Of a stretch of DNA of 64,000 nucleotides, positions 37,705 to 49,340 are shown piece after piece. The translations under genes and the position numbers were made by a program. The notes beneath the pieces were generated by a model. The model was not told the DNA's origin. It saw nothing but the letters and a program-made list of their open reading frames with translations, and did not search any database. The DNA is from Corallococcus soli (GTDB lineage Bacteria; Myxococcota; Myxococcia; Myxococcales; Myxococcaceae), in the NCBI RefSeq assembly GCF_014930455.1, contig NZ_JAAIYO010000006.1:186001-250000 (forward strand), written 5' to 3'. The number at the start of each line of letters is the position of its first letter. Within the stretch, counting starts at the first letter, position 1.

Positions 37705-39408
37705 TCACCGGATACCAGGGTTGGTCAGCATGCCCATGTCCTCTTCAATCACCTCGAAAACCGCCACCTTGTCCCGGGGGGGCCGCACCACCCGCTCCCC
37801 GAGCGGCATCACGTCGAAGCGGGCGCCCGTCGCGGCCAGCAGCTTGCCCGTCATGAGCACCTGACCGGGGCCGGCCGTGGACGCCAGCCAGCCAGCCACG
37901 CCCATGCCCTCTCCCACGGCGGTGTACTCCGTGCGGGCGTCCGTGCCGATCATCCCCACCAGCGCCTTGGTGGAGTGCAGCGCGATGCGCAGGTCACAGC
38001 GCTCGTCCTGGGGACGCCGTGCCATGCCCCGCTCCCAGTCCGCGCGCAGGGCCAGGGCGGCGCGCACCGCCCTCACCGCGTCGTCGCCCTTGGCATAGGG
38101 CACGCCGAAGAGGGCGCGCATGGACTCGCCCATGAAGCCCTCCACGGTCGCCTCGAAGCTGAAGACGATGCCGCTCATGCGCGCGTGGAAGTCGTTGAGC
38201 AATTGCGTGGCCCGCGCCGCGCCCAGCCGGCCGGCCACGGCGCCGAAGTCCGCCAGCTCCGCGTGCAGCACGGTGACGTTGCGCTCCTCCAGCCCCGGCA
38301 GCTTGCCGCCCACGCGCTGGGCCTCGGCGGCGCGGCGCTCGGCCACCTCCGGCGAGTGGAAGCGCTCCAGGTTGCGCCGCAGCCGGTCCGTGCCGGAGCC
38401 GTCGCGCACGGCGAAGCGCTGCACGCCGCTGGCCACCAGGTGGGACACCGCGGTGCAGGTGTCCAGCATCAGCTCCAGGCTGGTGTCCCCCTCGCCGGGC
38501 ACGTTGACGTAGAGCACGCCCGCGAAGGGGGGCTCGGTGCCAATGGGGATGCACAGCACGCGGTCCACGCCGTACATGATGACGCTCTCGCGTCCGGCGA
38601 AGCGGCGGTCATCGCGCACGTCGCCCACCGCGAGCGCGCGGCCCTGGCGGATGGCCTCCTCCACGATGGCGTCCGACACGGGCACCTCGCCCTTGGCGAG
38701 CCGTCCCCGGTGGCGCACGGCGGCGGGCACCAGCGGCCCCGCGGCGTGCTTGAGCAGCACCACCGCCGTCGTCGCGTCGGTGCGCTCCAGGAGCCGGTCC
38801 ATCGCGGACTCCAGGAACGCCGTCAGCGTGCGCGCGGTGGCCAGCGCCTCCGCGGCCTGCACCAGCAGCACCAGCGTCTCGTAGGAGACGCGCGGGCTGG
38901 CCACGGGCGTGGAGGGGGCCACGGGCGAGGCGCCGGAGAACGCGTCGTCGAACGGCAGCGGGCCCACGTTGTCCAGCAGGCGCAGCACGTCCGCGTCCTT
39001 CACGTTCTTGGCCAGCAGCACCGACGGGCCCACGTCCGTGCCGTGCCCGAAGCGCACGACGCCGCCCGCGCCCAGGTCCATCATCTCCGTGGCGGCGTTC
39101 TCCACCCTGTGCGGCTGGCGCACCGCCAGGGTGTTCTCCCCCAGCGCCACCGTGTCGCCCGCGTTCAGGTGCTTGCTGCCCTGGAGGGGCGCGCCGTTCA
39201 CCCGGCTGCCGTTGCGGCTGCCCAGGTCCTCGATCCGCAGCGCGTCGCCTTCGACATAGAGGCGCGCGTGTCGGCGCGACACCAGGTCACCGCCCAGCAC
39301 GATATCGTTCTCGTCCGCTCGGCCGAGGCTGGTGACGCCCTCGGGCAGATCGTACGACGTGTCGAAGTAGCCGGGCCCGTTGATGATGATCTGCCACATC
39401 GGGGGCAC
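37705..39408 (-). CDS. FHA-GAF-cyclase homology domain protein
   Basis: 567 residues in three parts. An FHA domain (about 20-95; GRADENDIVLGGDLVSRRHARL) binds phosphothreonine. A GAF domain follows (about 180-325), then a class III cyclase homology domain (about 380-555; VGMIGTDARTEYTAVGEGMGVAGWL). In the first metal site the usual FADI/FVDI acid is changed (VLHAELADFG), so nucleotide cyclase activity may be lost. It is probably phosphorylated by, or bound to, the kinase encoded next. GTG at 39408 preferred (GGAGG 12 nt upstream); an ATG lies three codons later. Confidence 0.85.
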   Translation of the reverse strand: MPPMWQIIINGPGYFDTSYDLPEGVTSLGRADENDIVLGGDLVSRRHARLYVEGDALRIEDLGSRNGSRVNGAPLQGSKHLNAGDTVALGENTLAVRQPHRVENAATEMMDLGAGGVVRFGHGTDVGPSVLLAKNVKDADVLRLLDNVGPLPFDDAFSGASPVAPSTPVASPRVSYETLVLLVQAAEALATARTLTAFLESAMDRLLERTDATTAVVLLKHAAGPLVPAAVRHRGRLAKGEVPVSDAIVEEAIRQGRALAVGDVRDDRRFAGRESVIMYGVDRVLCIPIGTEPPFAGVLYVNVPGEGDTSLELMLDTCTAVSHLVASGVQRFAVRDGSGTDRLRRNLERFHSPEVAERRAAEAQRVGGKLPGLEERNVTVLHAELADFGAVAGRLGAARATQLLNDFHARMSGIVFSFEATVEGFMGESMRALFGVPYAKGDDAVRAVRAALALRADWERGMARRPQDERCDLRIALHSTKALVGMIGTDARTEYTAVGEGMGVAGWLASTAGPGQVLMTGKLLAATGARFDVMPLGERVVRPPRDKVAVFEVIEEDMGMLTNPGIR

Positions 39409-39565
39409 GACATTACACGACCTCCCAATCTTCCGAGAGTCCGAGACGCATTCCTGTGACAGGTCGGGCGGCCGGCGGCCGTTCCGGGGGCCTCTTGCGT
39501 CGCGTCATGCCCCCAAAGCCCCCGAGTCGGCCAGACCCGGGGTCCGGCTTCACCTGGGAGGTGCC

Positions 39566-40069
39566 TCACCGGGGCCGGAGGAGGAAGAGCGAATCACCCA
39601 CGCGCAGGGTGCGGAACGCGGCGAGCGGTCGGGAGGCCGGGCCCCGCACGACCTGACCGTCCAGGCCGAAGCGGGAGCCATGGCAGGGGCACTCCACCAC
39701 GCCCAGGGGGCCGTCCCAGTCCACCGCGCAGTCGCCATGCGTGCAGGTGCGCCACACGGCCCGGTAGCAGCCGTCCGCCGAGTGCACCACCACCACGTCC
39801 AGGAGCGCGGAAGGGACCCGGAGGTGGCCATGACCGCCCGGCTCCCGCAGGGCCGGGTGCTCGGAGAGGGGGACTTCCACCCAGCCCTCGCCGGGCGTGC
39901 CGGGAGGCCCCGCGTCGCCGCAGACCGCCGGGGACGCCCCCGCGTCGGGAGCCGCTTCCGGGTCGGGGCCGGGCAGCACCACCGCGTCGCGCCAGTCCGT
40001 CCCGCACCCCAGCGCGGCCAGGGCACAGGTGCCGCGCAGCAGCGTCCGGAGCGCGGCGCGGCGGTCCAC
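39566..40069 (-). CDS. Rieske [2Fe-2S] protein with Tat-type lipoprotein signal
   Basis: 167 residues from GTG 40069. The N-terminus DRRAALRTLL followed by a hydrophobic run to AALGC (Cys22) looks like a twin-arginine lipoprotein signal. The Rieske cluster is complete: Cys109-x-His111 and Cys127-x-x-His130, with Cys114 and Cys129 placed for the stabilising disulfide. It is an exported small electron carrier or oxidoreductase subunit. The frame is also open from an ATG at 40210 that overlaps the upstream lipoprotein stop. The segment 40063-40174 repeats a ribosome-binding/GTG unit three times, so several starts are possible. It probably belongs to the riboswitch-1 operon. Confidence 0.82.
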   Translation of the reverse strand: MDRRAALRTLLRGTCALAALGCGTDWRDAVVLPGPDPEAAPDAGASPAVCGDAGPPGTPGEGWVEVPLSEHPALREPGGHGHLRVPSALLDVVVVHSADGCYRAVWRTCTHGDCAVDWDGPLGVVECPCHGSRFGLDGQVVRGPASRPLAAFRTLRVGDSLFLLRPR

Positions 40070-40174
40070 CCCAGCCGCTTCCGTCAGCTCCGGAGCCGAG
40101 TGGTGGTCCACCCCACCCGCCTCCGGAGTCTTCATCGCCAGTGCCACACGGCGGTCCACCCCACCCGCCTCCGG
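40063..40174 (-). repeat. Threefold in-frame repeat of a ribosome-binding site plus GTG start
   Basis: On the minus strand the unit GGAGGCGGGTGGGGTGGACC occurs twice (within 40153-40174 and 40105-40126) and in a slightly diverged form at 40063-40083. The spacings are 48 and 42 bp, both multiples of three. Each unit contains a Shine-Dalgarno-like GGAGG (GGAAG in the last) about 8 nt before GTG-GAC. In the long reading these give EAGGVD-type repeats; in the short reading they are spare start sites before the Rieske signal peptide. Confidence 0.7.
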
Positions 40175-40206
40175 GGCCTCCGGAGGTGCGCGGGGTGGAC
40201 CCGCGC

Positions 40207-40980
40207 TCACGGCTGGCCCCCGTCGGGGGGCTGGCCGTTCACCACGGCGACGGCGTCCAGGTCGAAGCCCCCGGAAGTGCCGCCGTAGCTGTTGAGCCCC
40301 GTGTCGGTGAGCCGCACGAAGCGCGCGCGGGAGAGGCCCACGTCCGCCAGGTCGAAGCCGTCCCCGCCCGCCACCGTCGGGTCGGTGGGGGAAATGCCGT
40401 TGTCCGGCGCGGAGTGCACCGGGTGCGTGCCGGCGCAGCCCGGAAAGCCCCCATCCTTGTCGGACGGGTCGCAGGCGAAGTCGTACCAGGTGGCGCCGTC
40501 GTCGCTGACGGACACGCGGGCCGTCTCCGCGAAGATGTCGCCGCCGTACTTCTGGAACGCGTTTTCGAAGACGAGCAGGTCCACGCCCGGCCCGTCCACC
40601 GCGAGCAGGTCGGTGAACTCCAGGGTGATGAAGCCACCCCGTCCCAGCGACAGCACGTCGAGCGAACCCGTGTTCTGCCCCGCGCCCACCGGAGGCCCGA
40701 GCACGACGTCCGGGAAGCGGTCCTGCCCGAAGCCGGCCTGGTCGCCGAACTCGTACGCCGTCACCCGGTCCGCGAACGGATCCACCGGACGCACACCCGC
40801 GTCGACGCCGGCATCGTCCGTGCCGGCATCGTCCGTGCCGGCATCATCCGTCCCCGCGTCGGAGCCGGTGCCGGCATCGACGGAGGCCCCCGCGTCCTCC
40901 TGGGGCAAGGGCAGGTTCTCACCGTCGCCCGCGCAAGCGCACAGGGCGAGCAGCGCGCTGAGCGCGAGCAGCGAGCGCAT
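40207..40980 (-). CDS. Small beta-rich lipoprotein of the cobalamin-regulated operon (copy A)
   Basis: 257 residues. A lipoprotein signal (Cys14 or Cys16 in LALCAC), then a DAGT/DDAG linker (about 28-62), then a domain of about 190 residues. Its markers are VDLLVFENAF, ARVSVSDDGATWYDF, GGDGFDLADVGLSRARFVRLTD and a closing GTSGGFDLDAVAVVNG. The pattern suggests a beta-sandwich surface-binding domain. A paralogue lies at 43128-43805 in the same relation to a larger lipoprotein. It follows the larger lipoprotein gene by 2 nt and is therefore under cobalamin riboswitch 1. Corrinoid binding is an inference from regulation. Confidence 0.75.
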   Translation of the reverse strand: MRSLLALSALLALCACAGDGENLPLPQEDAGASVDAGTGSDAGTDDAGTDDAGTDDAGVDAGVRPVDPFADRVTAYEFGDQAGFGQDRFPDVVLGPPVGAGQNTGSLDVLSLGRGGFITLEFTDLLAVDGPGVDLLVFENAFQKYGGDIFAETARVSVSDDGATWYDFACDPSDKDGGFPGCAGTHPVHSAPDNGISPTDPTVAGGDGFDLADVGLSRARFVRLTDTGLNSYGGTSGGFDLDAVAVVNGQPPDGGQP

Positions 40981-40982
40981 GC

Positions 40983-42296
40983 TCACGGCCCCTGCCGGAT
41001 GCGCACGAGGCGGCGGCCGTTGACGTCCGTCACGCCCACGAGCAGGTCGGAGCCCAGCGACGACAGCAGGTCCACGGACGTGCACGCGTCGGAGGCCGTC
41101 AGGACGGGCTCCCGGGCGCCCACGCTCGGGGGCTGTCCGCCGCCCAGGCCGGGCGTGAGCGGGAAGCGCGACACGTCGCTGACGACGAAGGTGAAGCTCG
41201 CGTCGAAGGCGCCACGCGCCACCGCCACGCCAGCGCCAAAGCCCGTGGCGTTGTTGAAGTTGCTGTCCACGTCGACTTCGGGCTCGTCCGTGAGCACCAC
41301 CGGCGTGCGCGAGGACACCGCCGTCGCCAGCTTGGCGGCCGCCACGGCGTGGGCCACGTTCACGTACGTCTGCGGCACCGAGTAGCCGAACACCGCGATG
41401 CCGTTGTCCGCGATGGCGGAGAAGCCGCTGCCGCCCACCTGCGCCGGGAAGCTCACCGCCTTCACTGCCGTGAAGGGCTTGGTGGAGGTCAGCAGCGCGT
41501 AGACGCCCAGGCCGTCCGACACGGTGTCCAGGCCGCCGCCGTTGATGAAGAACGTGTCGGTGGTGCCCGCGGCCGTGAAGTTGGACGGCGCGCTGACGTA
41601 GGTCGTCGCGTCGCGCGCGACCGGGTCGAGCACCGCGACCTTCCCCGAGCCATCCGACTTCGTGTAGCCGGCGAGCAGCCGCGTGCCGTCGTAGGCCAGG
41701 GTGTAGGACGGGAAGGTGCTCGTACCGGCGGCGCGGTCCTCGGGCGCCAGCACGGTGTCGAGCGCCGCCTCGCCCAGCTTCACGTCCGGCCAGGTGCCCA
41801 GCGCGAAGAAGTCACGGCCCGTGGCCGTCGTGCGCAGCGCGAAGAGCGAATAGGCGGGGCCGGGCGTGGACACCACCGCGACCACCTCCGTGGACAGGGG
41901 CGCCGCTTCCGCGACGCTGAAGCCCGGCTGGAGCTGGAGCGTGCCCAGCTTCTCGTCCCGGGGCACGGTGTCGCACAGCCCGCCGGTGCCGCCATCCGTG
42001 CCGCCGTCGGTGCCGGTGCCCGCGTCCGTCTGCGTGCCCGCGTCGGTGCCCGCGTCCGTCTGCGTGCCCGCGTCGGTGCCCGCGTCGTCACCGCCAGTGT
42101 TGGAGTCGACCTGGGTGCACTTCTCCTCCACGCAGGCCCAGCTCTGTCCCTGGGGGGGCGTGCTCTTGTCGCGGCAGTCGAAGGCGTCCACGCACTCCGA
42201 ACCGCAGCCCGTCCCGCCCAGCACCACCGCCAGCAGGCCGCCCAGCAGCGCCGCGCGCTGGCCCTTCGTTCCCATCCGCTTCATGTCGCTCCGCAT
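40983..42296 (-). CDS. Large lipoprotein with DAGT linker and propeller-like domain (copy A)
   Basis: 437 residues. Signal with Cys31 in LGGTGC, a short Cys-rich module (CVDAFDCRD ... ACVEEKC), a repetitive TDAGT linker (about 70-105), then about 330 residues of beta-rich sequence. Recurring blocks include LGTLQL, TPGPAYSLF, SNFTA, INGGGLDTVSDGL, GVGVAVA-like strands and a final NGRRLVRIRQ. This is compatible with a beta-propeller, though blade counting was not possible. It is the first gene after cobalamin riboswitch 1. Its paralogue is at 43805-45271. A surface corrinoid-capture role is inferred. Confidence 0.75.
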   Translation of the reverse strand: MRSDMKRMGTKGQRAALLGGLLAVVLGGTGCGSECVDAFDCRDKSTPPQGQSWACVEEKCTQVDSNTGGDDAGTDAGTQTDAGTDAGTQTDAGTGTDGGTDGGTGGLCDTVPRDEKLGTLQLQPGFSVAEAAPLSTEVVAVVSTPGPAYSLFALRTTATGRDFFALGTWPDVKLGEAALDTVLAPEDRAAGTSTFPSYTLAYDGTRLLAGYTKSDGSGKVAVLDPVARDATTYVSAPSNFTAAGTTDTFFINGGGLDTVSDGLGVYALLTSTKPFTAVKAVSFPAQVGGSGFSAIADNGIAVFGYSVPQTYVNVAHAVAAAKLATAVSSRTPVVLTDEPEVDVDSNFNNATGFGAGVAVARGAFDASFTFVVSDVSRFPLTPGLGGGQPPSVGAREPVLTASDACTSVDLLSSLGSDLLVGVTDVNGRRLVRIRQGP

Positions 42297-42475
42297 CGCG
42301 TCCTCGTTCCCCTCCGCCCGGAGGCGGAAGAATTCCTGACGGGAGGCGGCACGGGCGAAAGGCAACCGGAGCTCCCGCGTGCAACGCACCAGGAGGACCT
42401 GCCTACGCCGTCAGCTCCCCTCGGAGGTTCCGGTCTGTCTTCCGGGCCCTCCGTGAAGAGGGACACCGGCTCATC

Positions 42476-42609
42476 GCCAGGTCTTCGGACTCGCGGGAAC
42501 GGGGCTTCGGATGCGGGCGCCATTCCTGCTCACCGCTGCGGGGCAGTCCCGGACTCACACCGGGTTCCCTGGAAGCCTCCACACCCCATGGTGGGAAGGC
42601 ATCGATGAC
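42476..42609 (-). promoter_or_regulatory. Cobalamin riboswitch 1 (short form)
   Basis: On the minus strand the leader shows the B12-riboswitch core: AGGGAACCCGGTGTGAGTCC, ACTGCCCCGCAGCGGTGAGC and the closing GAGTCCGAAGACCTGGC (complement of 42476-42492). The interval between the core and the closing segment is only about 35 nt, and no CACTG...GGGAAG arm is found, unlike riboswitch 2. The downstream leader shares a conserved CCTCCGAGGGGAG hairpin region with riboswitch 2, about 180 nt before the lipoprotein start. Cobalamin binding would be expected to reduce expression. Confidence 0.88.
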
Positions 42610-42615
42610 GGGGCG

Positions 42616-42644
42616 GGACTACGGCGCCCCCAGTGCAATGTCAA
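42616..42644 (-). promoter_or_regulatory. Predicted promoter of the riboswitch 1 operon
   Basis: TTGACA (42639-42644, minus strand) and TAGTCC (42616-42621) with a 17-nt spacer, placing the start just before the aptamer. The -35 box overlaps the stop codon of the DUF4177-like gene. Confidence 0.6.
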
Positions 42645-42979
42645 TGCGGCGTGGGTTCGGGCTGCTTGCGGCGCATCAGGACGTAGCGCCGCGTGCTGCC
42701 GTCCACGACGACGGTGGACACCACCTGCCAGCCCTCCTCCCCCAGGCGCTGGAGTTCAACGAGGTCCTCCTCCGGGCCCTGGCGGGTCACGAAGGTGTAC
42801 TCGTACGCCGGAGGCGGCGTGGGCGCGGCGGGCGGCGTGGGCGCGGCGACGGGCGCGGCCTTCGTGGACGTGCGCGCGCGCGTCGTCTGGGCCCGGGCGA
42901 CGGTGGGGAAGAGGGAGACGGCGGACACACCGGGGAGGACGCCCATCAACACGAGGAGCGAAGCGAGATGACGGTTCAT
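42641..42979 (-). CDS. Secreted DUF4177-like protein
   Basis: 112 residues. A signal peptide (about 1-31, ending ARAQ), a Pro/Ala/Thr linker, then a compact C-terminal domain: YEYTFVTRQGPEEDLVELQRLGEEGWQVVSTVV...RYVLMRRK. This has the length and GEEGW core of DUF4177 proteins. The function is unknown. It lies between the two cobalamin-regulated operons and has no riboswitch of its own. ATG at 42979, GGAG about 9 nt upstream. Confidence 0.7.
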   Translation of the reverse strand: MNRHLASLLVLMGVLPGVSAVSLFPTVARAQTTRARTSTKAAPVAAPTPPAAPTPPPAYEYTFVTRQGPEEDLVELQRLGEEGWQVVSTVVVDGSTRRYVLMRRKQPEPTPH

Positions 42980-43078
42980 GGATGCGGACTCCGGGGAGGA
43001 TGCCCAGGCATGTAGTCCCGGGCCGTCCTGGCCGGAAGCCTCACCGGGGCGCGGGAGCTTCCACGGAGCCACGAGGCT

Positions 43079-43110
43079 CCCCGGACCGTCCGCTGGAGGA
43101 CGGCCCGGGG
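43079..43110 (-). terminator. Terminator-like hairpin after the copy B operon
   Basis: A 13-bp stem (CCCCGGACCGTCC against GGACGGCCCGGGG, one G-T pair on the minus strand) with a 6-nt loop, 18 nt past the stop of the copy B small lipoprotein. No T-tract follows. Confidence 0.6.
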
Positions 43111-43127
43111 CCACCGCGAGCCGCGCG

Positions 43128-43805
43128 CTACGGCAGTTGCACGCCGTTCACCACCGCGACGGCATCCAGGTCGAAGCCGCCGCTGGTGCCCGCGTACCCG
43201 TTGGCGCCGGAGTCCCGGATGCGCACGAAGCGCGCGCGGGTGAGGCCCACGGCGGCCAGGTCGAAGCCGTCCCCGCCCGCCACGGCCGGGTCGGTGGGGG
43301 AGATGCCGTTGCCGGGGCTGGAGTACACGGGCGTGACGCCCGCGCAGCCGGGGAAGTTGCCCGCGGCGTTTCCGGACGCGCACGGGAACTCGAACCAGGT
43401 GACGCCGTCGTCGCTGACGGCCACCACGCCCGTCTCCGCGAACGGCCGGCCACTGGGCCGCAGGAACGGGTTTTCGAAGACGAGCAGGTCCACGCCCGGC
43501 CCGTCCGTCACCGCGATGTCGGTGAACTCCAGGACGATGACGCCGTTCTGTCCCAGCGACAGCACGTCCAGCGAACCCGAACCCGCGCCCGAGCCCTGTG
43601 GAGCGCCCAGCACGATGTTCGGCAGCTGGCCCTGTCCGAACCCGGCGGCGGCGCCAGGTGCGAAGGAGACGATGTGGTCCGCGAATGGATCCCCCACCAG
43701 CGTCTGCTCCAGGGTGGACTCCATCGCCTCATCTCCACCGCACGCCACGGACAGGAGCACGGCGAAGCCCAGGGTGCACGACTTCGAAAGCAGGGAGCGC
43801 ATCAT
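43128..43805 (-). CDS. Small beta-rich lipoprotein of the cobalamin-regulated operon (copy B)
   Basis: 225 residues, lipobox LSVAC (Cys22). It has the same domain as the protein at 40207-40980: GVDLLVFENPF, AVSDDGVTWFEF, GCAGVTPVYSSPGNGISPTDPAVAGGDGFDLAAVGLTRARFVRIRD and GTSGGFDLDAVAVVNG. Unlike copy A it lacks the DAGT linker. The ATG overlaps the stop of the larger lipoprotein by one base (TGATG), so the two are translationally coupled under riboswitch 2. Confidence 0.78.
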   Translation of the reverse strand: MMRSLLSKSCTLGFAVLLSVACGGDEAMESTLEQTLVGDPFADHIVSFAPGAAAGFGQGQLPNIVLGAPQGSGAGSGSLDVLSLGQNGVIVLEFTDIAVTDGPGVDLLVFENPFLRPSGRPFAETGVVAVSDDGVTWFEFPCASGNAAGNFPGCAGVTPVYSSPGNGISPTDPAVAGGDGFDLAAVGLTRARFVRIRDSGANGYAGTSGGFDLDAVAVVNGVQLP

Positions 43806-45271
43806 CACTGCACCTGCTGGATGCGGACCAGACGCGGCCCGTTCTTGTCGTCCAGGCTGACGAGCAGGTCCGCACCGATGGCGGTCATCCCCGTCACGCG
43901 CGTGCACTGGTTCACGTAGGTGAGGACCGGCTGACGCGAGCCGACGGTGACAGCGCCCCCCTCATCCGTCACCGTGAAGGCGAAGCGCGACACGTCGGTG
44001 CCGGCGAAGTTGTAGTTGGGCGGAACGTAGTCGCCGCGAAGCACCGCCACGCCCGTGCCCTGGCCCGCGGCGGCGACGAAGTTGGAGCCCACGTCGAGCG
44101 CGGGCTCATCCGCCACGATGAACGGCGTGCCCGTCCGGAGGGCCGCGTCGATCTTCGCCGGAGCCACCGCGTGGCCCACGTTGGTGAAGGTGTCGTCGGA
44201 GAAGTAGCCGAGCATCGCGACGCCGTTGGTGGCCACGGCGGTGAAGCCGCTGCCGCCCGTGATCGCGGGGAGCGTGCCGACCTTCAGCGACGTGAACGGG
44301 GTGGTGTCCGTCCGCAGCGCGTAGATGGCCAGCCCCGCCGACACCGTATCGAGCCCACCGCCGTTGATGAGGAACGCACCCGGCACGACGCCCGCCGTGA
44401 AGTTGCTCGGCGCGGGGACGTAGGTGGAGGAAGCCGGCGTGACGCTGTCGTAGACCGCCAGCGAGCCCGGATAGCCCGTCCCGGACTTCGTATAGCCGGT
44501 GAGCACGCGCTGACCATCCGACTCCACGAAGCCGTTGAGGAAGAGCATGGCGGAGGGGGCGCGGTCGCCGGGAGCGGCCACGTCGTAGAGCGGGACCGTG
44601 CCCAGCGACACCTGGGGCCACGTGCCCAGCGAGTACAGCGCGTGCGGGCCGGAGGAGCCGCCCGACACCACCGTGAAGAGCGAATATGCAGGCCCCGGCG
44701 TGACACCCACCGGACCCGCCGAGGCCGGCAGCGCGGCCGACTCACCGGCCACGAACTCCGCCGCGAGCTGGAGCGTGCCCAGCTTCGGGTCATACGTGGC
44801 GCTCAGGCAGGGGTCGACAGGGCCCGCGTCGGGCTCCGTGCCGGCATCCGTCCCCGCGTCGGGCTCCGTGCCGGCATCCGTCTCCGTGCCTGCATCGGTT
44901 CCCGCGTCCACCGTCGTGCCCGCGTCCGTCTGCGTGCCAGCGTCGGTGCCCGCATCCGTCTGCGTGCCGGCGTCGGTGCTGGTGCCCGCGTCGGTTCCCG
45001 CATCCACCGTCGTGCCCGCATCCGTCTGCGAACCTGCGTCCGTCTGCGTGCCGGCGTCGGTCCCCGTGCCCGCGTCAGGGACCGGGATGGGCGTCAGCTC
45101 ACAGCGCTGCTCGACACACGCGTAGCGCTGGCCCTCGGGAGGGGCTCCCTGGTCCCGACAGTCGAAGTCATCGGCGCACTCATCGCCGCACCCCGTGCCA
45201 GTCAACGCCATCGCGAAGGTCGTCAGCACCAGCGCGAGCTTCCGCCCCGAAATCATCCGCTCTGTCTTCAT
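43805..45271 (-). CDS. Large lipoprotein with long DAGT linker and propeller-like domain (copy B)
   Basis: 488 residues. Lipobox TGTGC (Cys28), the Cys module CADDFDCRD...ACVEQRC, then a DAGT/TDAGT linker of about 85 residues (twice that of copy A), then the same propeller-like domain (LGTLQLAAEF, TPGPAYSLF, SNFTAG, INGGGLDTVSAGL, final NGPRLVRIQQ). The linker is encoded by a diverged tandem repeat at about 44820-45080. It is the first gene after riboswitch 2 and presumably projects from the outer membrane. Confidence 0.78.
   Translation of the reverse strand: MKTERMISGRKLALVLTTFAMALTGTGCGDECADDFDCRDQGAPPEGQRYACVEQRCELTPIPVPDAGTGTDAGTQTDAGSQTDAGTTVDAGTDAGTSTDAGTQTDAGTDAGTQTDAGTTVDAGTDAGTETDAGTEPDAGTDAGTEPDAGPVDPCLSATYDPKLGTLQLAAEFVAGESAALPASAGPVGVTPGPAYSLFTVVSGGSSGPHALYSLGTWPQVSLGTVPLYDVAAPGDRAPSAMLFLNGFVESDGQRVLTGYTKSGTGYPGSLAVYDSVTPASSTYVPAPSNFTAGVVPGAFLINGGGLDTVSAGLAIYALRTDTTPFTSLKVGTLPAITGGSGFTAVATNGVAMLGYFSDDTFTNVGHAVAPAKIDAALRTGTPFIVADEPALDVGSNFVAAAGQGTGVAVLRGDYVPPNYNFAGTDVSRFAFTVTDEGGAVTVGSRQPVLTYVNQCTRVTGMTAIGADLLVSLDDKNGPRLVRIQQVQ
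44820..45080 (-). repeat. Coding tandem repeat (DAGT linker)
   Basis: Imperfect units of 12-18 bp encode DAGT, TDAGT and TVDAGT runs. The same kind of repeat, shorter, lies in copy A near 42000-42085. The period is a multiple of three and it lies within a CDS, so it is protein low complexity and not a CRISPR or intergenic array. Confidence 0.8.
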
Positions 45272-45697: not shown

Positions 45698-47314
45698 TCA
45701 CGGCACCGCGACGATGTCGATGGCATTGGACACCACGCGCCGTGGGTCCACCGGACACGCATCCAGCGCCGCGCCCTTCGCCTCTGGCGTGGAGTTGCCG
45801 CGCCGCTCCACGAACTTCCCGTCGCGCACCTCCACCACGAACACGCGGCCCGCGTTCACGTCCGTCACGTACACGGCGTTGCCCACCACCGCGAGCCGTC
45901 CGCCCACCGCGAGGTCGCAGCCCTGCTCCGGCCCGCCAGCGCAGCCCGGAGACAGCGCGTAGGACGCCACCGGCCGGTCGTCCTTCACCAGCACCAGCCC
46001 CGTGGCGCGCACGTCCTTCGCTTGATAGCCGCCCGCGGTGTCGAACCGCGCCTCGCCCAGGCAGCTCACCACCAGGTGCTCGCCCACCGCCTGCACGTCG
46101 CCCGCGTTGAGACAGTCCTGGGCCCCCAGGTCGATGGCGCGCACACCCCCATCCGCCGGGTCGATGCGCGCGAGCATCCCAGGGCCATTGGGCAGGTAGT
46201 CGTTCGCGGGGTTCAGGTTGGTGAGCGCGACATAGACGCCCGCGTCCGTGGCCACCGCCGCGTACGGCAGCGCCATCGTCGTGCCGCCGTCGAAGGACTT
46301 GAGGTCCAGGCCGGTGAGCGGAATGGAATCCACGAGCCGGGGACGCTCCGGGTCGCTCACGTTGACGCGCGCCACGGCGTTGCCCTGCCGGAAGTCGGAG
46401 CCGGCGGTGCCGAACAGCGGGATGTAGAACGTGTCACCGCGCTTCGCGATGACCTGCGGGCTGGTGTTCGCGCCCAGGTTCACCTGCCCCACCGTGCGCA
46501 ATCCCAGTCCACCGCCCTGCGCGGGCCCTTCCCGCTTGAGCACCTGGAGCGTGTTGTTCACGGAGTCGAGGACATACACATACGGAGGGTCCACGAGGAT
46601 GTCATTGGGCGACGCCGCCACCGCGCCCAGCGAGTCCTCCTCCACCACGGCCCCCAGCGCGCCCGCCAGCGCCTGCGACAGCACCGAGCGCGCCGCGTCC
46701 GCCGCCAGCACCACGCCGTCCCACGCCGCCAGCGACTGCACGCCCGAGCCGAACTGCCGCCGGGGCCCCATCCGGTCCGTGCCCGCCTGGATGCCGACGA
46801 GCTGCCCGTTGGTGTAGCAGGCCGCCACCACGTCATACATGCACCGGCCCGCGTGGCAGGACTGCACGTCCGGACACACCGTGCCGCAGGCGCCGCAGTT
46901 CAGCGGGTCGCTCGCGAGCACGGCGCAGCCGCCATTGCACCGCTCGGAACCCGGGGGACAGGCCTCCGCGCAGGTGCCCGCGCTGCACACCTGATCCGCG
47001 GGGCACGCGTTGCCGCAGGCGCCGCAGTTGCGCGCATCGGACGACAGGTCGAGGCACGCCTCGCCGCAGGCCGGTGCGCCGGTGCGGCATTCACACGCGC
47101 CCGCCTGACACGTCTCCCCTTCCCCGCACCGGACGCCACAGCCGCCGCAGTTGAAGGGGTCGCCTTGCAGGTCCGCGCACTCGGAGCCGCAGACGTCGAG
47201 TCCGGACGTGCACAGGACCTTCTCCTCCGGACAGCCGGTGAGGACCGAAGTGACCAGGGCGGACACCAGCAGCGTGAGCCACCGCGACCGCGCATCAGGG
47301 AGGGGACGCGACAT
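45698..47314 (-). CDS. Cys-rich, probably beta-propeller surface lipoprotein partnered with the TonB receptor
   Basis: 538 residues. Lipobox LTGC (Cys28), then about 130 residues with three or four Cys-rich units of the type CGxxCxDLxxDxxNCGxCGxxC common in myxobacterial surface proteins, then about 370 residues of propeller-like repeats. Examples are SLAAWDGVVLAADAARSV, PNDILVDPPYVYVLDSVNNTLQVLKREG and VVGNAVYVTDVNAGRVFVVEVRDGK. The gene overlaps the end of the TonB receptor gene by 20 nt, so it is under riboswitch 3. BtuG of Bacteroides is likewise a propeller lipoprotein paired with BtuB; common function is inferred. Confidence 0.8.
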   Translation of the reverse strand: MSRPLPDARSRWLTLLVSALVTSVLTGCPEEKVLCTSGLDVCGSECADLQGDPFNCGGCGVRCGEGETCQAGACECRTGAPACGEACLDLSSDARNCGACGNACPADQVCSAGTCAEACPPGSERCNGGCAVLASDPLNCGACGTVCPDVQSCHAGRCMYDVVAACYTNGQLVGIQAGTDRMGPRRQFGSGVQSLAAWDGVVLAADAARSVLSQALAGALGAVVEEDSLGAVAASPNDILVDPPYVYVLDSVNNTLQVLKREGPAQGGGLGLRTVGQVNLGANTSPQVIAKRGDTFYIPLFGTAGSDFRQGNAVARVNVSDPERPRLVDSIPLTGLDLKSFDGGTTMALPYAAVATDAGVYVALTNLNPANDYLPNGPGMLARIDPADGGVRAIDLGAQDCLNAGDVQAVGEHLVVSCLGEARFDTAGGYQAKDVRATGLVLVKDDRPVASYALSPGCAGGPEQGCDLAVGGRLAVVGNAVYVTDVNAGRVFVVEVRDGKFVERRGNSTPEAKGAALDACPVDPRRVVSNAIDIVAVP

Positions 47315-49340
47315 GGGAGTCCTCGGAGGAAGCGGAGCGCAGGGGTTCGAGCGCCACGGAGAAGGTCACGTAGGCGGCGCGGCCGGGCAGCGGCATGCCG
47401 GTGAAGTCGGCGGTTCGCGCGTCCAGCAGGTTCTTGAGGTCGAACGACACGGTGAGGTCCGGTCGGCGCAGGAAGGTGCTGGACGCGCCCACGCTCACCC
47501 AGGTGCGCGACGGCAGGGACAGGCGCGCTTCGCCCACGCGGTTGATGAGCTGCGCGGATTGGACCAGGACCTCGGTGCGGGCGTTGAGCCAGTCCGGCCC
47601 CGCGCGCACGCGCCCCACCCACTTGTGGCGCGGTCGGTAGGGCAGCTCCTTGCCGAAGTAGCGGGGGTCGCCGTAGCGGTTCTGCGTGCGGGTCCACGCG
47701 TAGCTGGTGGTGGCGGTGAGCCACGCGCGCGGGCGGGCCTCCACCTCCACCTCCGCGCCCCACACGCGCGCGGCGGCGAAGTTGTAGGGCTTCGCGAGCA
47801 TCGGAGGATACATCTCGTAGGCGATGAGGTTCTCGTACACCGCCGCGAAGCCGCCCGCGGTGACGCTCCACGCGGCGTCGCGCCACAGGCCCGCGGCATC
47901 CACGGACAGGGCGCGCTCGGGCTTGAGGTCCGGGTTGGGCAGCAGCAGCCCCTGCCGGATGTACAGCTCCAGGAACGAAGGCGCGCGGTGGGACTGGCCC
48001 GCGTTGGCGCGCACGCCGAAGCCACGGCCCAGGTCCACGCTCGCGCCCAGCTTGGGCGACAGCAGCGAGTAGTCCCCCACGCGCTCCACGCGCAGCGACG
48101 GCACCAGCTTCACGCGCTCGGAGAGCAGGGACAGCTCGTCCATGACCATGACGCTCGCGCGCCACCACGACGCGGACTGCGCGCCCGTCGCCTGCGTGAC
48201 GGCCTCGGAGGAGGTGGCCAGCGTGACGGCGAGCGCGTGGCGACCGCCCACCACCGCGCGCCCCTCCACCTCCAGGCCGCCCACGGTGTAGCGCTGCGCG
48301 CCCGCATCCACGCCCGTCGTCCCGCCGAGGACGTCCACCCAGTCGCGCCGGAAGAAGCCGCGAGCGCTGGCCTCGCCCGTGTCCCCGAAGGGCCGGCCCC
48401 AGCGACCGCCCAGCGACAACCGGGTCTGGTCCTGACGGCGGGAGAGTTGCGGGTTCTGCACCGTGCCCGCGAGCGCCCGGTCCTCCAGGGACAGCTGCGC
48501 GAGCAGGTCCACGCGCCCGCCGCCGTCCAGGCCACGCTGGTACTTCACGAGCGCGCCACCGCCGCGCGCGTCGTTGCGGGTGCGCACCTCCTCCATGAGC
48601 GGGTTGTCATCCAGCGCGGGCAGCTCATCGACGCGGAAGCGGAAGTCCCCCTGCGAGCGCCCGCCGTGCACCAGCACCAGCGCCCGTCCGTCGAGCAGCG
48701 CGCCCGACGCGGCGACGTGGCCCGTCACGGTGTCGAAGCTGCCGTAGGTGACCTCGCCGCTGGACACCAGGCGCGAGGACGGAGCGCGGGTGACGATGTT
48801 GACCGCGCCGCCCAGGCCGCCCGCGCCGTAGCGGGCCCCCGCAGCGCCGCGAAGGATCTCCAGCCGCTCCACCAGCGCGACGGGGACGAGCGACAGGTCC
48901 GCGATGCCGCCCGCGCCGTTGAGTGGAATCCCATCCAGGAACACGAGCACCCCGTTGGCGGACGCGCCGCGCACCACGAGGCTCTTGCTCTGCCCATACC
49001 CGCCGGAGTCCTGCACGACGAGGCTCGCGGATCCGCCCAGCAGCTCCGCGGTGTCACGCGCTTGCCCCGCGCGCTCGCGCGCATCGATGACGGTGATGGC
49101 GCCGGTGGGATCCCGCCGCTGCACGGAGTCCGGGGGCGCTTCGGGGATCGCCTTGCCGATGACGTCCACGGTGGGGAGGACGAACTCAGGCAGGTCCGGC
49201 TCGGCGTCGGAGGAAGTCGGAGCGGGGTCAGCGACAGGGCGCACGGGTTCGGGCGCAGGAGGTTCCTGCCCGGCGTGAGCGAGTCCCTGGAAGCTGAGCA
49301 CCAGACCCAACGAGGCCCGGGCGAGAAGCGAGCGCAACAT
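47295..49340 (-). CDS. btuB: TonB-dependent outer-membrane receptor (BtuB-like, cobalamin-regulated)
   Basis: 681 residues. Signal peptide (about 1-23), a plug domain (about 70-190; DSVQRRDPTGAITVID, SKSLVVRGASANGVLVFLDGIPLN, RLEILRGAAGARYGAGGLGGAVNI) and a beta-barrel to a C-terminal strand (AAYVTFSVALEPL). The plug motifs are those of TonB-dependent transporters, and the length fits BtuB-type receptors. Corrinoid as substrate is inferred from cobalamin riboswitch 3 in its leader. ATG at 49340 with GGCGGAG close upstream. No BtuCDF permease is encoded in the window. Confidence 0.9.
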   Translation of the reverse strand: MLRSLLARASLGLVLSFQGLAHAGQEPPAPEPVRPVADPAPTSSDAEPDLPEFVLPTVDVIGKAIPEAPPDSVQRRDPTGAITVIDARERAGQARDTAELLGGSASLVVQDSGGYGQSKSLVVRGASANGVLVFLDGIPLNGAGGIADLSLVPVALVERLEILRGAAGARYGAGGLGGAVNIVTRAPSSRLVSSGEVTYGSFDTVTGHVAASGALLDGRALVLVHGGRSQGDFRFRVDELPALDDNPLMEEVRTRNDARGGGALVKYQRGLDGGGRVDLLAQLSLEDRALAGTVQNPQLSRRQDQTRLSLGGRWGRPFGDTGEASARGFFRRDWVDVLGGTTGVDAGAQRYTVGGLEVEGRAVVGGRHALAVTLATSSEAVTQATGAQSASWWRASVMVMDELSLLSERVKLVPSLRVERVGDYSLLSPKLGASVDLGRGFGVRANAGQSHRAPSFLELYIRQGLLLPNPDLKPERALSVDAAGLWRDAAWSVTAGGFAAVYENLIAYEMYPPMLAKPYNFAAARVWGAEVEVEARPRAWLTATTSYAWTRTQNRYGDPRYFGKELPYRPRHKWVGRVRAGPDWLNARTEVLVQSAQLINRVGEARLSLPSRTWVSVGASSTFLRRPDLTVSFDLKNLLDARTADFTGMPLPGRAAYVTFSVALEPLRSASSEDSHVASPP

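Follow-up and report, generated by a model that had tools for sequence, protein, structure and literature searches.

A Rieske protein gene in a conserved, riboswitch-preceded lipoprotein cassette of Corallococcus soli and its possible role in the redox chemistry of captured corrinoids

The closest described counterparts of the locus analyzed here are the BtuB/BtuG/BtuH loci of Bacteroides thetaiotaomicron. BtuH2 of this organism binds B12 and has a homologue in the H domain of BtuG1 (PMC8941943, PMC10404256), a protein that carries a propeller and this H domain in one chain (PMC10404256). According to PMC8941943, the lower B12 ligand faces the BtuH2 protein and the upper ligand is without protein contact. 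The loci combine a TonB receptor, propeller and BtuH-fold lipoproteins, and several B12 riboswitches, and they contain no Rieske protein; the word “Rieske” occurs 0 times in PMC10404256. Another group of exported B12 binders, the jelly-roll DUF4465 (BtuJ) proteins, is encoded beside B12 transport genes, in Myxococcota as well (PMC13398666). A cobalamin riboswitch and a Rieske protein are treated separately in the available part of PMC5317091, and no pairing of a Rieske protein with B12-capture lipoproteins was found in the literature set searched, which lies mostly outside subscription journals. BtuG/BtuH capture itself is already known, and the new part of the locus described below is its Rieske member.

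The locus lies in a window of 64,000 nucleotides, which is the whole stretch of DNA analyzed and part of contig 6 of the 9.4 Mb genome of Corallococcus soli. It resembles the Bacteroides loci in all the components named above, but the propeller and the H domain that are fused in BtuG1 correspond to the products of two neighboring genes, and a Rieske gene is present. The features of the receptor operon and of cassettes A and B are all located on the minus strand. The receptor operon consists of a cobalamin riboswitch (RF00174; 49396..49636), a BtuB-like TonB-dependent receptor gene (47295..49340) and, directly after it, the gene of a Cys-rich lipoprotein (45698..47314), whose N-terminal part is MXAN_6577-like (E 3.5e-43) and whose C-terminal part appears propeller-like by eye. 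Cassette B contains a second riboswitch (RF00174; 45428..45655) followed by B1 (43805..45271) and B2 (43128..43805), the paralogues of A1 and A2, with no Rieske gene after B2. Cassette A contains the third riboswitch (42459..42621; RF00174, 68.8 bits, E 7.1e-15), the lipoprotein gene A1 (40983..42284), whose product has a Cys-rich N-terminal part, an Asp-Ala linker and a modeled beta-propeller, the lipoprotein gene A2 (40207..40980), whose product has a predicted BtuH-type fold, and the gene of a putatively exported Rieske [2Fe-2S] protein (39566..40210). No RF00174 match other than these three riboswitches was found in the whole genome. A small exported DUF4177-like protein is encoded between cassettes A and B (42644-43114; E 0.0097, below the cut-off) and is conserved across Corallococcus loci; in some of these (L035, L095, L096, and L097), an additional propeller gene of the B1 type separates it from cassette A.

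The riboswitch of cassette A exceeds the gathering score of 31.5 bits and is situated on the same strand upstream of genes that follow one another without gaps, which is the anatomy of a riboswitch operon. Only 2 bases separate the A1 stop from the A2 start, and the GTG start of the Rieske gene overlaps the A2 stop by 4 bases. The original prediction had placed the Rieske gene directly against the lipoprotein pair, which is borne out, but had read the overlap as ATGA; it is GTGA (40210-40207), and the first in-frame ATG of the Rieske ORF is found at 40135. This overlap and the narrow A1/A2 gap leave no intergenic room for a separate promoter. A scan for sigma-70-type promoters from 39300 to 42800 returned 0 matches, a result that carries little weight for a GC-rich myxobacterium. 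Since a predicted hairpin downstream of the cassette A riboswitch covers the Shine-Dalgarno region of A1 (one fold) and would mask its ribosome site, control may act on translation.

The likeness of A1 and A2 to BtuG and BtuH shows in predicted folds and gene order: Pfam and PDB sequence comparisons gave no match to BtuG or BtuH, PDB sequence profiles of both proteins retrieved no B12 protein and no BtuH chain at E values up to 1 or 10, and Pfam returned no match for A2 at E 0.1. The A2 model (pLDDT 94.8), built from 53 sequences (51 of the 74 loci from the genome scan described below and the two window sequences), matched best to BtuH2 (7biz; Z 13.6, rmsd 3.1 over 154 residues) and, with Z 13.2, to the BtuG1 H domain (8blw); none of the other matches listed exceeded Z 9.2. 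Foldseek likewise placed 8blw first (E 9.8e-5) as the only match under 1e-3, so that the model has the fold of the BtuH B12-binding domain. BtuH pocket residues taken for comparison included Gln333, Asn399, and Phe401. A2 has a near-invariant Q23 and an invariant N77 and F79, with an N-x-F spacing that suits Asn399/Phe401 of BtuH in terms of sequence spacing only. The A1 model (pLDDT 94.9) is a beta-propeller; its structure matches are propellers, many of which tie, and BtuG is not among the matches listed. The models thus lend support to the original proposal that the lipoproteins are B12-binding candidates, and A1 and A2 are probable corrinoid binders. In contrast to DUF4465 (BtuJ) proteins, A2 has no Pfam match at the E value given above and its fold matches BtuH; no DUF4465 entry appeared among the 50 matches listed in the A2 structure search, an absence that proves nothing. 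Weak sequence similarity connects A2 and B2 with the Leptospira LIC_13355 family (NF033170; E 6.7e-6 and 4e-10), with 25.5 and 39.4 bits against a family cut-off of 120 bits, and to our knowledge this family has no Rieske or B12 link. LIC_13355 is the subject of PMC11891782.

The Rieske gene encodes 214 amino acids from its GTG start. Residues 138-199 match PF00355 (E 1.3e-11, 44.7 bits against a cut-off of 20.3), and both cluster boxes are present (CTHGDC and CPCHGS), which places the protein in this family. The twin-arginine motif VDRRAALRTLL is followed by a hydrophobic segment that terminates in LGCG, which is lipobox-like but not canonical, suggesting that the protein is exported by a Tat-type signal and may be anchored as a lipoprotein. 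Among the 64 Rieske loci collected (54 from Myxococcaceae and 10 distant ones), regular expressions on the sequences detected RR in 62 and a lipobox-like pattern in 54. The boxes C-[TS]-H-G-x-C and C-P-C-H-G-S are kept in 63 of the 64, with the first box absent from L106, perhaps because of an assembly fault, which argues that the cluster itself is under selection. Purifying selection was observed for the Rieske gene (median dN/dS 0.22) and for A2 (0.35) in 36 Corallococcus pairs each. The best-scoring solved sequence is PDB 5cxm (E 1.1e-17), which we take to be the plasma-membrane protein PetC3 of cyanobacteria. Such standalone, high-potential-type Rieske proteins share the C-x-H-x2-C and C-P-C-H-G-S boxes with the window protein, which differs in its Tat-type signal with Cys, the coupling of its gene to that of a BtuH-fold lipoprotein, and the riboswitch.

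All 96 available Myxococcaceae genomes were surveyed for the cassette. Relatives of A2 (188 bits or more) occur in 72 of them and close Rieske relatives in 54, all of which belong to the 72, with none in the other 24. These counts exclude matches restricted to the Asp-Ala linker and non-adjacent Rieske paralogues below 63 bits, whereas the Rieske gene of G094 (62 bits) was counted because it is adjacent; matches below 50 bits were ignored in the locus maps. In 52 of the 54 genomes the Rieske gene adjoins A2 on the same strand, including G054 with an extra propeller gene between the two; in G061 the locus is split over two contigs, the Rieske start being cut by the end of the contig that carries A2. 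Every one of the 52 adjacent loci, including that of the window, has a 4-base RTGA overlap of the Rieske start with the upstream stop. Overall, this overlap is present in 60 of 64 Rieske loci (52 in Myxococcaceae and 8 distant); L053 was not counted as overlapping, since the frame concerned is no gene there, and an overlap is also missing from L104 (contig end), L154, and L156. The two lipoprotein genes overlap by 4 bases in 64 of 89 cases. A same-strand RF00174 riboswitch lies upstream in 50 of the 54 Rieske loci, 2.1-4.8 kb from the Rieske match. The remaining four are L073 and L105, whose contigs stop a short way upstream of the first lipoprotein gene, the split locus L104, whose riboswitch is on its partner L103, and L053, which holds the moved Rieske gene discussed below. 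The cassette is also present on a Myxococcus xanthus contig (L127). This conserved anatomy strongly supports the original proposal that the Rieske gene would be co-regulated with the lipoprotein pair. Cobalamin riboswitches elsewhere in Myxococcaceae were observed before genes resembling, by eye, those of class I ribonucleotide reductase and a CbiM-like transporter (L237, L239, and L235), and a tandem pair of further cobalamin riboswitches lies away from the cassette locus in one Corallococcus genome (L107; G028:C1:8343000-8351000).

When 84,980 species genomes were scanned using the A2 alignment, 74 loci were obtained, and in 32 of these the flanking sequence retrieved contains a Rieske match. 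Ten of these 32 are outside the Myxococcaceae by label (Myxococcota, “Deltaproteobacteria” and “Pseudomonadota” assemblies), and such labels are unreliable. In these ten loci, a BtuH-like gene is followed by the Rieske gene, with a same-strand upstream riboswitch in nine and the 4-base overlap in eight; the arrangement of the Rieske gene as a chance neighbor was rejected on the basis of this conserved coupling, which is complete among the adjacent Myxococcaceae loci. The first gene of the distant loci encodes a different lipoprotein, with a CGGFSW-like motif at its end in several, for which Pfam gave no significant match in most cases. The constant part thus consists of riboswitch, BtuH-like gene, and Rieske gene. 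In a second sample of 18 loci with A2 from other families of the phylum, a Rieske gene was found in only one (on the same contig as L136). The pairing is therefore frequent but not general, and the reading in which every BtuH-like gene has a Rieske partner was rejected.

The explanation that best accounts for these data treats the Rieske protein as the third member of a cassette repressed by cobalamin, coupled to the other members in translation and carrying out redox chemistry on captured corrinoid; taken as a whole, this explanation has about an even chance of being correct. Its parts differ in strength. Membership in the cassette and control of the Rieske gene by B12 are very probable, the repression by B12 being deduced from the riboswitch. 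The cassette would be read in the order riboswitch, beta-propeller lipoprotein, BtuH-fold lipoprotein, and Tat-exported Rieske protein. Low B12 would open the riboswitch, so that the cassette proteins would be made together with the receptor operon, with control perhaps exerted on translation and extended by coupling to the later genes of the cassette. At the envelope, a corrinoid would be bound by the BtuH-fold protein and probably also by the propeller, and its cobalt, the presumed target, would exchange one electron with the Rieske cluster in either direction. The changed oxidation state and upper ligand could then allow the corrinoid to be released, handed on or kept transportable. Since the same message encodes a putative corrinoid holder, the one-electron carrier would be well placed to alter the cobalt, and because the upper ligand is without protein contact in BtuH2, the upper face of the cobalt could be open to a redox partner. 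The action of the Rieske protein on corrinoid is the best explanation for its presence and a hypothesis that draws on more than position, to which barely even confidence is assigned. A bc-type Rieske cluster could exchange electrons with the Co(III)/Co(II) couple of aquo-cobalamin and could hardly reduce cyanocobalamin. The motifs of the Rieske protein of the window are of the bc type, usually a high-potential class, and would make it a weak reductant for cyanocobalamin. This counts against the redox reading, as do the lack of a consistent electron-transfer partner gene beside it in the loci read and the Rieske-less and relocated cases described below. A more far-reaching version is put forward tentatively, with distinctly less confidence: an extracytoplasmic corrinoid redox enzyme may exist in myxobacteria and their relatives, in which the Tat-exported Rieske lipoprotein docks on the BtuH-fold carrier and changes the oxidation state of the cobalt via the exposed upper face; this would remove upper ligands and bring different corrinoids to a common form ahead of their import across the outer membrane. 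We know of no extracytoplasmic redox step in B12 capture described before. If the Rieske protein does act on corrinoid, B12 acquisition would involve a chemical step ahead of import, with competition for the various forms of corrinoid (cyano-, hydroxo-, base-off, cobinamide) hinging on it. The BtuG/BtuH architecture of gut Bacteroides seems to be present in predatory soil bacteria too, with separate genes and an added redox protein.

The original prediction had named absence of the Rieske gene from relatives that keep the lipoprotein pair as evidence against its proposal. Such absence does occur, in 18 of the 72 A2-bearing Myxococcaceae genomes, but remnants of the Rieske gene follow A2 in 7 of 11 Rieske-less loci tested, each scoring above all 100 shuffles. 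The test covered 11 of the 18 loci, with the shuffled control applied to 3 of 11 reference Rieske genes; G021 ends at a contig edge, and the other 6 were read by eye. Six Corallococcus loci retain the 3′ part of the gene, L043 retains the 5′ part and a piece of the 3′ end, and L034 shows a leftover of 17 codons in frame, composed of the coupled start and the final codons (by eye). The remnants indicate that absence is often the result of later loss. Two genomes of genus g3 (L041 and L042) lack both the Rieske gene and a riboswitch directly before the pair, and have tRNA genes upstream. In Hyalangium versicolor (G041), the GTG of the Rieske gene is located one base after the stop of metE (L053:821-3842), which encodes a cobalamin-independent methionine synthase of 826 residues (Pfam E 4e-156), and not with the lipoprotein genes. 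In a tree comprising 62 of the 64 Rieske sequences (L104 and L106 were left out), this protein groups with its own genus (support 96/99), so that the gene has moved rather than arrived. Absence from a quarter of the A2-bearing genomes and this relocation thus characterize the Rieske gene as accessory, and its absence in relatives reflects this status, not unrelatedness. Capture presumably works without it, given these Rieske-less genomes and the rarity of the gene in other families.

The metE case ties the Rieske gene to B12 shortage apart from the lipoproteins, as one case only, and it is the main point in favor of an alternative in which the protein belongs to the response to B12 shortage without touching corrinoid, acting as an envelope electron carrier when B12-dependent routes are off, for example for a B12-independent pathway. 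The move of the gene within its genus fits this explanation as well. However, the metE placement is found in only one of 54 genomes, while 52 have it linked to the BtuH-like gene or to the cassette of that gene; RF00174 gave no match before metE of G041, whose three riboswitches sit on other contigs; and B12-independent routes that use an exported Rieske protein are not known to us. A carrier of this kind is thus considered unlikely, though it is the strongest competitor of redox action on corrinoid. Still less probable is a function of the Rieske domain as a redox, oxygen or NO sensor, or as a structural module, that gates the capture lipoproteins and leaves the cobalt unchanged. Standalone Rieske proteins of unknown partner exist, the closest solved relative being 5cxm, and no partner redox gene was found consistently beside the Rieske gene in the loci read, which would suit such a function, but exported Rieske proteins have no established role in sensing. 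A respiratory bc1/b6f Rieske subunit of the ordinary kind located here by chance is highly improbable and was rejected as an identity on the NCBIfam scores, since the best matches are indeed b6f/bc1 Rieske subunits but remain far under the equivalog or subfamily cut-offs (50.3 vs 250, 49.9 vs 154, and 34.9 vs 97.4 bits), Pfam revealed no cytochrome b among the window neighbors scanned, and the Rieske gene is conserved in its coupling to a BtuH-like gene that a cobalamin riboswitch precedes.

The 5′ part of the Rieske gene (40100-40210) contains three copies of a VDRR/VDHH-type segment. A mobile in-frame repeat was considered for this region and rejected, as the VDRR repeat has no copy family in the genome (24 pattern matches vs 25 in the reversed control). 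A very stable hairpin is predicted just after the Rieske start (-69.5 kcal/mol, z -3.2), and inverted repeats like those of this 5′ part mark the deletion remnants in other Corallococcus.
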